Positions 2,262 through 61,141 of a DNA stretch of 64,000 nt are shown here, piece by piece. The stretch's first letter is position 1. Every line of letters begins with the position of its first letter. The notes under the pieces are model-generated. The model made no database searches. It was not told the origin of the DNA and worked only from the letters and a program-made list of their open reading frames with translations. The stretch is from Candidatus Peribacteria bacterium (GTDB lineage Bacteria > Patescibacteriota > Gracilibacteria > UBA1369 > LOWO2-01-FULL-3), in NCBI GenBank assembly GCA_943357285.1, contig CALRGJ010000005.1, forward strand, positions 19,935-83,934, in the 5' to 3' direction. Made by a program: the position numbers and the translations under genes.

Positions 2262-2328
2262 CAGCCTAGCACCCAAACATTAAATTTTCTTAAAATTTTT
2301 CTAAATTAATTTTAAAACATTTTGCTCA
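2262..2328 (-). repeat. dispersed AT-rich repeat, copy 1
   Basis: AAATTAATTTAGAAAAATTTTAAGAAAATTTAATGTTTG (2312..2274 on minus) identical to 54087..54125; flanks resemble copy 3. Confidence 0.9.
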
Positions 2329-36945: not shown

Positions 36946-37021
36946 AATAATTACAGATTAGAAAGTGTCCCCATGAACATATTAGAAATAAAATTTTGAA
37001 TCGGTCAACTTTTCCTTTTCC

Positions 37022-54086: not shown

Positions 54087-54125
54087 AAATTAATTTAGAA
54101 AAATTTTAAGAAAATTTAATGTTTG
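54087..54125 (+). repeat. dispersed AT-rich repeat, copy 2
   Basis: 39 bp identical to reverse complement of 2274..2312. Confidence 0.95.
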
Positions 54126-54238
54126 TTTGATATACAGAAGATGTTGATACTGATAAACACTATCACTCACCCAGAATGTTTGACAATTATCTGACAATTC
54201 CGGTAAAATTAAGGCGGTCACGATTAAAAGGCCTACTT

Positions 54239-54523
54239 ATGAACGAAAAAACTATTAACACCCGAGAATTCCTCCGTAATTACAAGAAATTCATCGCTGC
54301 CAACGAGACGGTGATTATATCCAATCACGGTAAGCCAGAAGGAGTTCTCATCCCCTATCCAGAATGGGAAAAGAATACCCAACGTAAATCCAAAATCATT
54401 ACTCAAGAAATGATTGATAAATATACGAAGGACCTACCAGGATTTACTCCTATTTCTAATCGTGAAATAGACGAAGCTGCTTATCCCTATCCTAACAAAA
54501 TTAATAAGAGTAGAAAAAAATGA
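54239..54523 (+). CDS. putative Phd/YefM-like antitoxin
   Basis: INTREFLRNYKKFIAANETVIISNHGKPEGVLIPYPEWEK; 4-bp overlap with PIN gene. Confidence 0.75.
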   Translation: MNEKTINTREFLRNYKKFIAANETVIISNHGKPEGVLIPYPEWEKNTQRKSKIITQEMIDKYTKDLPGFTPISNREIDEAAYPYPNKINKSRKK

Positions 54524-54906
54524 TTATTATAGATTCATCAGTTTGGATATCACTTTTCAATCCATTGGATTCTAATCATGATAGAGCAAAAAAAATATTT
54601 GAAGGCCTTAATTCTGAACATATAGTAATATTTGATTACATATTTACAGAGAGCATGACAGTTTTTAGGAATAAAGTTTCAGATGAATTTTGTGTTAAAT
54701 TTGAGCAGCTTCTTCATTACTGGGATATTTCAGTTTTCTTTACTGATCACATCCTAGTACGCCTCGCCACCGAATATTTTTTTCAATTCAAAAAACTCTC
54801 TTTTACTGATTGTCTTATCCTAGCCTCTGCTAAACTAAACGATTATGAAATAGCCACTTTCGATGAAGAACTAAAAAAAGCTTCTAAGCTCGCCCTAGCC
54901 CAGTAG
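54520..54906 (+). CDS. PIN-domain (VapC-like) toxin
   Basis: MIIIDSSVWISLFN, FTESMT, SFTDCLILASA, ATFDEEL acidic motifs. Confidence 0.88.
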   Translation: MIIIDSSVWISLFNPLDSNHDRAKKIFEGLNSEHIVIFDYIFTESMTVFRNKVSDEFCVKFEQLLHYWDISVFFTDHILVRLATEYFFQFKKLSFTDCLILASAKLNDYEIATFDEELKKASKLALAQ

Positions 54907-56397: not shown

Positions 56398-59300
56398 ATG
56401 AAAACGTATCTATTCAATCTTCTGACTCAATCTTTTAAAGAAAAGAATTTAATTTTTGAGGCCACAAAGGGCGGAGAAGCTGCGAAAACTGAAGCACCAA
56501 AAGATGCTGCTCCGGCAAAACCTGAGGAGGCAAAGGGAGCAGAAAAAAAACCTGAAACTCCAGAAGAGAAAAAAGCAAAAATAAAAGAAGCTATTGGCGC
56601 TTTGACACCAAAGTTTGAAAAAGTTTTGGCTGAAGGTAGTGGTTATACTGAGGATTTTATTAAAGAAACAAAAAAGATTAAAGAAAAATTTGAAGAAATT
56701 ACTAAAAAATTAGAGGGTGATAAAAAATTGGATAAAGCGGATTTAAAGATATTTAATGAAAAATTGGAAAAATCTTATGAAAATAAATCTCTCGAAAGAA
56801 ATAAAAGTATTCAGGCTCAAAGAGTAGCTCTGGAAGCCGCAAAAACTGACCCTGAACTCACTGCAGATAAAATTTGGGAAGCACAGAAATCAATGTTGAT
56901 TGAAGGTGATTTTTCCGAATCTATTTTGGAGGCTATTAAAGAAAAATTTAATGCCGAAGGTAGATTGAAAAATCAATTTGAGTTTGTATCTAAGATACTT
57001 GATGGTGCTGAAAAAGGTGCCAGTGATGAAAATGCAGATAAAAATCTCGCCGAGGCGACTAAAGAAATTAAAAATTTAACTAAAGGAATTTTCACCACTA
57101 AGGACTTCACCGCACAATACAATGCAGTTCTAGAAGAAGTTAAAAAGATTAATGATTTTCCGAAGGACGTGAAAACTCTCGGAGAAAAAGCTTCCGCTGC
57201 TAAGACCGCAATCTTTGACAAAATTGCCGAAGATATCAAGAAAAGTAAGGAAGGAAAACCTCTCAACCCAAATTCATTTGTAGCGTATCAGCAAGAGATT
57301 ATGTACGCACATGTTGCTGATGTTTTGGGTGATGAAGAATTGACTCCGGAAAAAATTAAATCAGCTATCAGCCTTTATGACCTTGGGAAATTTAAACCTG
57401 GAAAAGAAAGTGCAGAAGCTAAAAAAACTTTGGATAAACTTCTAAGTCCGGAAATAAAAGATAAACTTATTGCCGCCGGAATCCGTATCGATTTTATGGG
57501 AGGTACCGATGGTACAGATCACCAATTAATGAAGAGTAAAGAATGGCATGATGAAAAAGTTACTGCATTTGATAAACTTGTAGCTTTCGATTCTGCTGGG
57601 CATCTCAATCCTCCACTTACAGCTGATAATAAAACGGAAATTGAGGCTTATAAAACAGCTGTTGCAGCTGGTACTCAAGCCGATTTCTTGAATGATGCTG
57701 CTCACAAAGATAAATTTCTCTCTGGTGGTATGCTTTTTGATCAAGCTTTGGCCCTTCAACGTGCTGAAGACAAGGCAGAGAGAGTAAAAGAATCATTTGA
57801 TCCAGCTCAGAGATATCTCAATATTGAATTAGGTAATTCTACCGCTGCCGACAATGAAGAAAAGAAATCCGGTATTGCTTTCAATATTGAGGAAAAACCG
57901 GAAGTTGATGAGACTAAACCTCAGTATGAAGTGGAAGGAGGTACTGTAGTGGTTACTCTTCCTAAGGATCCTCAGAAACCAAATGATGTGCCTGTAAAAT
58001 TAACTTACACTTTGAGTACGGTTCCATCACTTCAGGCAGAATTGAAACCTGGAAATCCTCCGACTATTACGGTTGAAGGTCGTGTAGCTACTCTAGAGTT
58101 AGAAGGAGAGAAACTTGTTTCGAAAGATAAAGATCCTAATGATGAAGATAAGAAATTTACGGCTTATTGCACTCTGACAATTGTGGAGCCAAAAGGAGAT
58201 AAACAAGGAACAATCGAAGTTAAAAAAATAGAAGAGAAGAAAGACGAAACTCCTCAGGATAAAGAACATCCAAACGATAGTGAAGCTGAAGCAACTGATA
58301 GAAAATATTATGAGGAAAAAAAAGTTCCATATAAAACTGAAGCCGAAGCAAAGGCAGAGGGAATGTTAGAAACTACTACAGACAATAAACTTAAGCCAAA
58401 AGATGGATATGATTGGGCTGCCACCGATGAAGACAACAAGGCTCATCCAACAAATTACGCTACAAAACGAAAAGAAGTAGCTAAACCCCCTGAGCCAGCC
58501 GCAGATCTTCCCGACACAGCGACTCCAGACGGAGCAGGAGCACAACCAGCAGCAGATCTCCCAGGTACAGCAACAGCAGCCGAAGGAGGAGCGCAACCAG
58601 CCACAGCTTTACCAGATGGCTCTACGCAGGTAGATGCACCAGCAACTCCAACGGAGACTACAGATAAGGTGCCAGAAGCTCCAGTAAAAGATTATACATA
58701 TTTGTTTATTAATGATGGCAAAGATCTTCAAGTAGAAAGAGGTGGGGAAAAATGGCAGTTCAAATTAAACAATCAGGCAGAAGTTTCACTTTCAGCTATT
58801 GATTCTGGAGATAATAACTATGTCCGCCTAGATAAGAAAATAGATGGCAAACAATTCTCGGCTTACTTTGAATTTGATCCAAAAACTGGAGTTTTCAATT
58901 CAAGACCTATTGATGGATTTCCAGATCTTCACGACACTACTACTATTTCTTACGATAAAAATACAAGAACAATTAATGTAATTCCAAAAAATACACCTGC
59001 AGATGCCCCAGTAGACAATCCTCAGCCTGCTACAGATACTAGTGAAGCCAATAACTCAGAAAGTAATAACCCAGCCTCAGAAAGGAGGACGCTTTCGAAT
59101 GGAATAATAACAGAAGGTTTATTTGATAAAGAAACTGGTCGTTTTCTCAAAGGAAAAGCCACATTTAAAGATGGAGATATATACGAAGGTTTATTTGATA
59201 AAGAAACTGGTCGTTTTCTCAAAGGAAAATGCATACATAAAAGTGGAGAAATTCTAGAAGGTGATTTTGATAAAGACACTGGTAATTTAATCAAAGGAAA

Positions 59301-59883
59301 AGCCACAAGTAAAAGTGGAGAAATTCTAGAAGGTGATTTTGATAAAGACACTCGCGCTTTCATCAAAGGAAAGAGGACATTTCCAGATGGGAGAGTAGTA
59401 GACTTCCCAGAACCAAAATTACCACTCACTATTTCTGGCAATACGTTAACCTTAAATATGAATGATGGTACAACCAAAAAATATACTATTAAAACTAATG
59501 ATAATACAAAACTTGAGATTAAGGAAAAAAAATCAGGAGAATTGTGTGAGGTTGTTATTAATGGATTTGTCTCAGCACTTATAGATATTAAACCAAAATT
59601 AACACCCCCTGTATCTGTATATATGGGATACGGAGAACCTTGGCAGTTCAATATAAAAACTGGTTCTTCGGATTCAATTAAAGAGATAATTTTTAGTCCT
59701 AGGGCAATAAGTGATGCCAATATTATTGAAGAATTGTTAAATCAAAATGATTGGATAGCTAAATCAAATGATGGATTTAGCTATTACAATAAGTTTGCAC
59801 GTAATCGATTAGCCGACAACAGTTATGAATATTGGATGGTGCCAAATGGGGCAAATGATTACAGAAAATTAAATAAAGAATAA
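56398..59883 (+). CDS. large hypothetical protein, charged/coiled N-terminus, Ala-Pro-rich linker, MORN-like repeats
   Basis: 1161-aa uninterrupted ORF; internal 24-aa repeats G-x3-EGxFDKxT-x4-KGK. Confidence 0.85.
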   Translation: MKTYLFNLLTQSFKEKNLIFEATKGGEAAKTEAPKDAAPAKPEEAKGAEKKPETPEEKKAKIKEAIGALTPKFEKVLAEGSGYTEDFIKETKKIKEKFEEITKKLEGDKKLDKADLKIFNEKLEKSYENKSLERNKSIQAQRVALEAAKTDPELTADKIWEAQKSMLIEGDFSESILEAIKEKFNAEGRLKNQFEFVSKILDGAEKGASDENADKNLAEATKEIKNLTKGIFTTKDFTAQYNAVLEEVKKINDFPKDVKTLGEKASAAKTAIFDKIAEDIKKSKEGKPLNPNSFVAYQQEIMYAHVADVLGDEELTPEKIKSAISLYDLGKFKPGKESAEAKKTLDKLLSPEIKDKLIAAGIRIDFMGGTDGTDHQLMKSKEWHDEKVTAFDKLVAFDSAGHLNPPLTADNKTEIEAYKTAVAAGTQADFLNDAAHKDKFLSGGMLFDQALALQRAEDKAERVKESFDPAQRYLNIELGNSTAADNEEKKSGIAFNIEEKPEVDETKPQYEVEGGTVVVTLPKDPQKPNDVPVKLTYTLSTVPSLQAELKPGNPPTITVEGRVATLELEGEKLVSKDKDPNDEDKKFTAYCTLTIVEPKGDKQGTIEVKKIEEKKDETPQDKEHPNDSEAEATDRKYYEEKKVPYKTEAEAKAEGMLETTTDNKLKPKDGYDWAATDEDNKAHPTNYATKRKEVAKPPEPAADLPDTATPDGAGAQPAADLPGTATAAEGGAQPATALPDGSTQVDAPATPTETTDKVPEAPVKDYTYLFINDGKDLQVERGGEKWQFKLNNQAEVSLSAIDSGDNNYVRLDKKIDGKQFSAYFEFDPKTGVFNSRPIDGFPDLHDTTTISYDKNTRTINVIPKNTPADAPVDNPQPATDTSEANNSESNNPASERRTLSNGIITEGLFDKETGRFLKGKATFKDGDIYEGLFDKETGRFLKGKCIHKSGEILEGDFDKDTGNLIKGKATSKSGEILEGDFDKDTRAFIKGKRTFPDGRVVDFPEPKLPLTISGNTLTLNMNDGTTKKYTIKTNDNTKLEIKEKKSGELCEVVINGFVSALIDIKPKLTPPVSVYMGYGEPWQFNIKTGSSDSIKEIIFSPRAISDANIIEELLNQNDWIAKSNDGFSYYNKFARNRLADNSYEYWMVPNGANDYRKLNKE
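59101..59388 (+). repeat. four tandem 72-bp units encoding MORN-like 24-aa repeats
   Basis: GIITEGLFDKETGRFLKGKATFKD / GDIYEGLFDKETGRFLKGKCIHKS / GEILEGDFDKDTGNLIKGKATSKS / GEILEGDFDKDTRAFIKGKRTFPD. Confidence 0.92.
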
Positions 59884-60522: not shown

Positions 60523-60575
60523 TAGTTAATTAATTTAAGAAAATTTAATGTTCGGCTGCTACGGTCAAAACAATT
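60523..60575 (+). repeat. dispersed AT-rich repeat, copy 3 (11-nt shorter)
   Basis: GAGCAA-N10-AATTAATTTAAGAAAATTTAATGTTCGGCTGCTACGG matches copy 1 layout. Confidence 0.75.
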
Positions 60576-60612
60576 CATAACACAAACAGCCTTGAATATT
60601 AGCCTACTTTCC

Positions 60613-60641
60613 GATAGTATACATTCAGAATATATACTATC
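60613..60641. promoter_or_regulatory. candidate autoregulatory operator of AbrB-RelE-like pair
   Basis: GATAGTATA-N11-TATACTATC perfect 9-bp inverted repeat 11 bp before the ATG. Confidence 0.7.
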
Positions 60642-60651
60642 TACAAATTAT

Positions 60652-60909
60652 ATGACCCATACTGCCATCCCTTCTATCAAGGGGCAAATTACCATCCCAG
60701 CAGAAATAAGGACTAAATATAATATTGGTAAGGACACTCCTGTGGTTATTGAAGACCAAGGAAAGGGCATTATTACTCTAAAAATTATGCGCATGGTTGA
60801 GAATGACAGCATTGAATATTATGAAGATAAAGGTGGATTTGGGCTAAATTTCAAAAAGCCAATTGATCCACAAGTTTTAATAGACGCTATCAAAAAAATA
60901 GATGGATAG
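60652..60909 (+). CDS. AbrB/SpoVT-family antitoxin
   Basis: SIKGQITIPAEIRTKYNIGKDTPVVIEDQGKGIITL. Confidence 0.85.
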   Translation: MTHTAIPSIKGQITIPAEIRTKYNIGKDTPVVIEDQGKGIITLKIMRMVENDSIEYYEDKGGFGLNFKKPIDPQVLIDAIKKIDG

Positions 60910-61141
60910 AATACAAAAATTTCTTTTAAAATTAGACAGAGATAGGCGTTCAATATATATAGAAATATTTCAGGATATTAGAGTCCTAAATCTAGAGAAA
61001 TACGATGTTCAGGCTTTAAAAGGATTGAAAGGGTTATTTAGATTAAGAAAAGGAAAAATAAGAATAATTTTTACAAAACAAAACAGCACAGGCTTTATCC
61101 TTAATGCCGATTTCAGAGGAGATATCTACAAAGGAATATAG
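60902..61141 (+). CDS. RelE/ParE-like toxin
   Basis: FLLKLDRDRRSIYIEIFQDIRVLNLEKYDVQALKGLKGLFRLRKGKIRIIFT; overlaps antitoxin ORF. Confidence 0.75.
   Translation: MDRIQKFLLKLDRDRRSIYIEIFQDIRVLNLEKYDVQALKGLKGLFRLRKGKIRIIFTKQNSTGFILNADFRGDIYKGI

Follow-up and report, generated by a model that had tools for sequence, protein, structure and literature searches.

The window, i.e. the whole stretch of 64,000 nt analysed here, is part of contig C5 of a genome of 25 contigs (1.21 Mb). Judged by ribosomal protein L20, the nearest relatives with a name are MAGs of Candidatus Peregrinibacteria/Peribacteria. The window holds three copies of a short repeat, each oriented toward the gene or gene pair named below. 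Copy 2, a 39-mer at 54087-54125 (forward strand), is identical over 39 nt to the reverse complement of 2274-2312 (copy 1, reverse strand), and copy 3 at 60539-60563 (forward strand) is shorter by one 11-nt unit. Both relations had been stated in the original prediction and were confirmed by sequence comparison. When the window was searched for an 18-mer core with up to three mismatches allowed, only these three sites were found, all with zero mismatches, against 0.70 expected by chance. A 20-mer core gave 15 sites genome-wide versus one for the reversed control. Thus, the earlier statement that the repeat exceeds chance holds as well.

Copy 1 precedes a gene on the reverse strand (1504-2256) for a conserved protein of 250 amino acids, which had been taken for an HNH endonuclease. 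Copy 2 is followed on the forward strand by genes for a Phd/YefM-type antitoxin (54239-54523; PF02604 with 6.4e-6, below its cut-off, and TIGR01552 above its cut-off) and a PIN-domain toxin (54520-54906; PF01850, 3.4e-11). Behind copy 3, also on the forward strand, lie genes for a MazE/AbrB-type antitoxin (60652-60909; PF04014, 4e-7) and for a RelE-like small toxin candidate (60902-61141), which was named from its position and gave no match in Pfam or NCBIfam. The claim that each copy faces an accessory gene was upheld for the orientation, the Phd-PIN pair and the MazE/AbrB antitoxin, but the HNH identity of the 250-aa protein was rejected, as it had no match in Pfam or NCBIfam. Both toxin-antitoxin (TA) pairs appear to have a second, ordinary promoter/operator in the interval that separates the element from the antitoxin gene (54160-54238 and 60600-60650), with the signals TTGACA..TAAAAT and GTATACATTCAGAATATATAC; hence, these pairs may receive two inputs.

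An extended -10 was read in the sequence of each copy, namely TGCTAGGCT at 2263-2271 (reverse strand; also seen in the alignment) for copy 1, TGATATACA at 54128-54136 (forward strand) for copy 2 and TGCTACGGT at 60557-60565 (forward strand) for copy 3. An ungapped alignment of 24 copies gave the consensus AATTTTAGAATTAATTTAGAAATAATTTAAGAAAATTTAATGTTTGTTTGCTATAAT. It comprises an AT-rich array phased at 11 bp, whose unit consensus is AATTTTAGAATTAATTTAGAAATAATTTAAGAAAATTTAATGTTTG, and a block of nearly invariant columns at about -38 to -24, with most columns on to -18 well conserved. TGnTA, the extended -10, stands in register 3' of this block; TTGACA was sought at the -35 place of the 24 aligned copies and was absent. 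Self-similarity of the upstream sequence peaks at a lag of 11, i.e. one helical turn, whereas control regions are flat. Periodicity, conserved block and the register of TGnTA together mark the repeat as promoter DNA whose units are in helical phase, copy 1 being the promoter of the 250-aa gene and copy 2 that of the Phd-PIN pair. The 11 nt by which copy 3 differs are accounted for by a single unit gained or lost. Homology between the copies ends at the promoter, and little common sequence lies beyond. The earlier suggestion of a shared regulatory leader was therefore right in the regulatory part, although a promoter, rather than a leader within the transcript, is what the copies share. At several copies the start codon lies 6-10 nt past the -10. 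Copy 1 is among them, with 6 nt from its extended -10 to the gene start at 2256; leaderless messages are predicted for genes spaced in this way.

Genome-wide, the 71-nt window copy used as query detected the element at 22 sites (E < 1e-3); further sites came from a second subtype, which ends in ATTTTAACTTTG. Summed over the pattern searches, on which all these counts rest, about 30 copies are in promoter position. Genes directly downstream encode RecA (1e-134), DprA (2.6e-74), SSB (9e-33), YifB/ComM (1.2e-167), ComEC_Rec2 (1.6e-40), ComF (2.2e-27) and YraN (1.9e-24) according to HMM matches. ComEC is encoded in two pieces under the element, a channel part and a separate metallo-beta-lactamase part; the channel part (L080) was assigned by eye from the sequence, the other com names by HMM matches. 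RecA, DprA, SSB, ComF, ComM and ComEC form the classic late-competence set. No pilus gene was found behind any of the copies. Other genes directly downstream encode an LTD-domain protein, a KilA-N protein, HicA and DUF4258, in addition to the three loci of the window, and six copies precede genes for tRNA-like RNAs, termed RNA A below. In the gene set, TA pairs are outnumbered by other genes. The original prediction had proposed to tabulate downstream genes for a bias toward accessory or TA genes; such genes are present, but the bias is not, since many copies precede the conserved core genes recA, ssb, dprA, comF, comEC and comM. With regard to the LTD-domain proteins, the element lies upstream of a gene at L073:13574 whose secreted product contains a Lamin Tail Domain (PF00932) and upstream of one at L068:14497 whose product was judged LTD-like by eye.

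Across 118 genomes (this genome and relatives), matches to the element cluster within the genus and family of this genome. In sister species, the element is retained at the orthologues of comM, yraN, comEC, recA, dprA, HicA and KilA-N (judged by eye), and relatives keep it at the orthologue of the 250-aa gene (L126-L128); orthologous placement was seen in three sister species. At 38 loci with tRNA genes above the Rfam cut-off, no element was present upstream.

Most RNA A fold as a cloverleaf within an outer helix P1 (~95 nt), with a 7-bp acceptor, a small D hairpin holding GG, a normal T arm and an anticodon arm of 9 bp (6 bp, a bulged A, 3 bp) whose loop mostly has 7 nt. A covariance model recovered the family in relatives and then further afield. 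The 69 aligned members, among which is one canonical tRNA-Ala (L266), have G3:U70 in 68 cases and GG and TTCRA in all; at most of the other acceptor positions, bases change while Watson-Crick pairing is kept. Together with A73, G3:U70 gives RNA A an alanine acceptor identity. G3:U70 is the identity pair of alanine tRNAs recognised by AlaRS. The loops (e.g. CTACGAA, CTGATAA, CTTGACA, CTCGTCA and GTTAGCA) carry no alanine anticodon at 34-36, and the terminal ACCA is replaced by ACCG or ACCC in some members. We infer the alanine-type features from sequence, and alanylation of RNA A is putative.

ARAGORN calls none of the six RNA A of this genome, and their RF00005 scores are below the cut-off or unlisted; on these grounds they were rejected as ordinary tRNAs, while a few relatives pass RF00005 (e.g. 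L185 with 35.6 bits). For three RNA A genes the best Rfam match was tmRNA, just under its cut-off (four loci at a permissive threshold), with scores of 44.6 and 44.3 bits versus a cut-off of 47. The near match arises because of the shared alanine acceptor. RNA A has the alanine acceptor and T arm of tmRNA, and lacks its mRNA-like tag domain and full length. An identity as tmRNA was rejected, since an anticodon arm takes the place of the tag and a separate true ssrA is present at C5:7260-7687. The sixth RNA A of this genome (L066:4152 onward; G000:C1, ~7.2 kb) has an apparent insertion of two hairpins in the acceptor 3' strand and keeps its antisense copy; it was left out of the RNA A models. 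A further locus, L235 (G000:C7:18913-18988, minus strand), has a full cloverleaf with the alanine acceptor GGGGCTG..CAGCTCCACCA and the loop CTCGACA. ARAGORN calls it tRNA-Ser(CGA), a normal copy of which is found elsewhere in the genome, and an antisense to its own anticodon arm lies just upstream. It looks like an intermediate, i.e. a tRNA-Ala body with a non-alanine loop.

Nearly every RNA A is adjoined by a stretch matching its anticodon arm. Read from its own promoter, this stretch would yield RNA B, which is antisense in its 5' part to the anticodon arm of RNA A. By eye, RNA B has a -10 of its own (often TGnTATAAT, or the pair TTGACA/TATAAT), a start 6-8 nt past it and a terminator at its end. 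The CCA end of RNA A is a second pairing site for some RNA B. Cognate partners had a mean antisense energy of -34.0 kcal/mol, compared with -22.3 when partners were non-cognate and -20.2 in control DNA taken from upstream. A partner scoring at least 10 was found at 64 of the 69 loci versus 6 of 69 mismatched loci; orientation was convergent at 47, divergent at 13 and tandem at 4. In a later set, all 14 non-canonical loci, eight of them outside the class, had a partner, versus none of six canonical tRNA hits; the pairs extend to other classes of Patescibacteria. Among the differences between RNA A and its RNA B copy, 39 transitions keep G-U pairing versus 11 which break it (p = 9e-5, an approximate value, as related loci are not independent), besides six transversions. 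Such an excess is predicted by RNA pairing and not by plain duplication of DNA, which argues for an antisense RNA. The existence of RNA A/RNA B pairs is, on this evidence, highly likely.

The element motif drifts between genera, so that dprA and RNA A can be compared within and between genomes. The dprA upstream region was taken from 18 relatives and compared with the RNA A promoters of the same genome in the 17 where both were usable. Similarity had a mean of 20.0 within genomes versus 12.2 between genomes (permutation p = 5e-5). Near-identical stretches of 62, 49 and 35 nt were found in G041, G047 and G058, respectively; in G005, G053, G062 and G074 the same test gave no specific likeness. 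The likeness within genomes indicates that dprA and the RNA genes belong to one regulon in several genera. The tie between the probable competence box and RNA A refers to Peregrinibacteria.

Since the DNA-uptake and recombination genes comEC, comF, dprA, comM, recA and ssb share the element upstream, the repeat is very probably the promoter/activator box of a natural-competence regulon. In the proposed mechanism, a dedicated activator or an alternative sigma factor would bind the AT units on one face of the helix. This unit-binding factor, perhaps one of the five sigma-70-family proteins of the genome, would switch the genes of the element on together, and the 11-bp phasing would be the reason why copies grow and shrink by 11 nt. 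ComK boxes (Bacillus), the cin-box (streptococci) and CRP-S (Haemophilus/Vibrio) likewise place one element at comEC, comF, dprA, ssb, recA and accessory genes. The present element differs from them in its 11-bp-phased AT array with an extended -10, and the ComK box AAAAN5TTTT, the cin-box TACGAATA and the TGCGA core of CRP-S were each found in 0 of the 24 aligned copies. Natural competence is established for Saccharibacteria (PMC10633639). In Haemophilus influenzae, a TA pair is under the competence regulator (PMC6957337), which resembles the TA genes of the present regulon; there, it is a protein TA in a single operon, whereas here several protein TA pairs and RNA-only modules are involved.

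Three other explanations of the element were weighed. The original prediction had offered a mobile-element end or an integration or recombination site, which would spread accessory cargo, and dispersed copies, an exact 39-mer and nearby TA genes would agree with it. Such an end or att site bounds a movable unit, and its placement varies among relatives; here, in contrast, sister species have their copies at the same genes, core genes lie downstream, the extended -10 faces the gene in a kept promoter register, and homology stops at the promoter. We consider this explanation hardly credible, and an integron-like site was rejected together with the other two for the conserved placement. A generic strong promoter, read by the housekeeping sigma factor through UP-element-like AT tracts and defining no special regulon, would account for tracts phased at one helical turn and for a -10 of the extended sigma-70 type. 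It is very improbable, as canonical tRNA genes lack the element, the gene set is strongly competence-like, and the motifs of dprA and RNA A drift together between genera. Moreover, conservation extends to the -35/-10 spacer, a feature that UP elements would not require. The membership of recA and ssb could fit a DNA-damage (SOS-like) regulon, and TA genes are often linked to damage; comEC, comF, dprA and comM, however, serve uptake and transformation and are not typical SOS genes, which makes a damage regulon in place of a competence regulon very improbable.

For the two-RNA module, the matched, locus-specific antisense RNAs and the presence of protein TA pairs in the same regulon suggest a TA-like role. 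RNA B would be made constitutively from its ordinary promoter and would invade, open and block the anticodon arm of RNA A, thereby neutralising it; competence would turn RNA A on, and free alanyl-RNA A would act on the ribosome or on translation as a tRNA mimic. We put forward this toxin-antitoxin-like mechanism tentatively, as plausible but short of probable. Equally tentative is the fuller reading for Patescibacteria, namely an RNA-only module with an alanine-accepting RNA A, competence-induced in Peregrinibacteria and restrained by its antisense, which on release might insert alanine at other codons or jam ribosomes and so couple DNA uptake to tRNA toxicity or mistranslation. RNA A may instead be a non-toxic regulatory tRNA mimic, binding for example AlaRS or another protein, with RNA B tuning it. 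The conserved fold, several copies per genome and some syntenic loci (L070/L164/L168) would suit such a mimic, while diverse loops and locus-specific antisense RNAs suggest insulated modules and not one regulator; we regard it as plausible as well, if slightly less so than the toxin-antitoxin-like mechanism. The tRNA-piece repeats could also be attachment-site remnants of integrations into tRNA genes, since elements with tyrosine recombinases duplicate tRNA pieces. G-U-preserving differences, promoters and terminators around the piece, and its occurrence in four orientations with the antisense relation alone kept speak against remnants and for antisense RNAs, so that this origin is highly unlikely. 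A function of RNA B as T-box leader was rejected: some RNA B contact the anticodon arm and the CCA end as a T-box riboswitch would, but RNA B ends at its own terminator without a consistent gene behind. The idea of a bridge or guide RNA was dropped, as the repeats are antisense RNAs with their own promoters.

Several known systems resemble the module in part. Both partners are base-pairing RNAs at sequence level, as in type VIII (RNA-RNA) TA systems; the module is not filed as a member of this type, toxicity and neutralisation being putative. CreTA (PMC8501985) consists of CreT, by which a tRNA is sequestered, and of CreA, which acts by way of CRISPR effectors. As in CreTA and type VIII systems, the present module would pair a small RNA that targets tRNA or translation with an RNA partner holding it in check, but here the main RNA is itself tRNA-like and its partner a direct antisense. 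The tRNA-like domain of tmRNA shares the alanine acceptor with G3:U70, the T arm and a reduced D region with RNA A. Unlike tmRNA, RNA A has no tag region or pseudoknots, and an anticodon arm and an antisense partner are present. tRNA-Other of Bacillus cereus, a single pseudo-tRNA with a Trp anticodon and linked to iron (PMC3399842), is likewise a tRNA-like element in regulatory RNA outside translation; the accessible part of that report describes no antisense partner family for it. A reduced D arm and altered arm lengths are also known from naturally occurring non-canonical tRNAs, whose review (PMC7609411) makes no mention of Patescibacteria, candidate phyla or antisense.

In a search of Rfam and of a literature whose coverage left out most subscription papers, no family or paper describing the RNA A/RNA B pair was found, nor any paper combining tRNA-like RNAs with Peregrinibacteria, nor anything similar. 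Apparently, RNA A has not been described before as a family; its members resemble alanine tRNAs, and each is paired with a dedicated antisense RNA. Taken by itself, the repeat would belong to a known kind as a new competence box, whereas no known kind was found into which the two-RNA module fits. Through the element, the timing of DNA uptake in an uncultured CPR lineage would become readable from sequence as a competence regulon, and the module would represent a family of tRNA-like RNAs that occurs phylum-wide together with its antisense partners and that standard tRNA and Rfam searches miss. If RNA A were alanylated and decoding, it would provide cells with a natural source of mistranslation that can be switched.

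Two further repeats were observed in the window. An inverted repeat pair of 60 nt (1762-1821 and 36949-37008) is 77% complementary over a distance of 35 kb. Tandem repeats of 72 nt at 59100-59372 are inside the long ORF 56398-59883 and correspond to a protein repeat of 24 residues.
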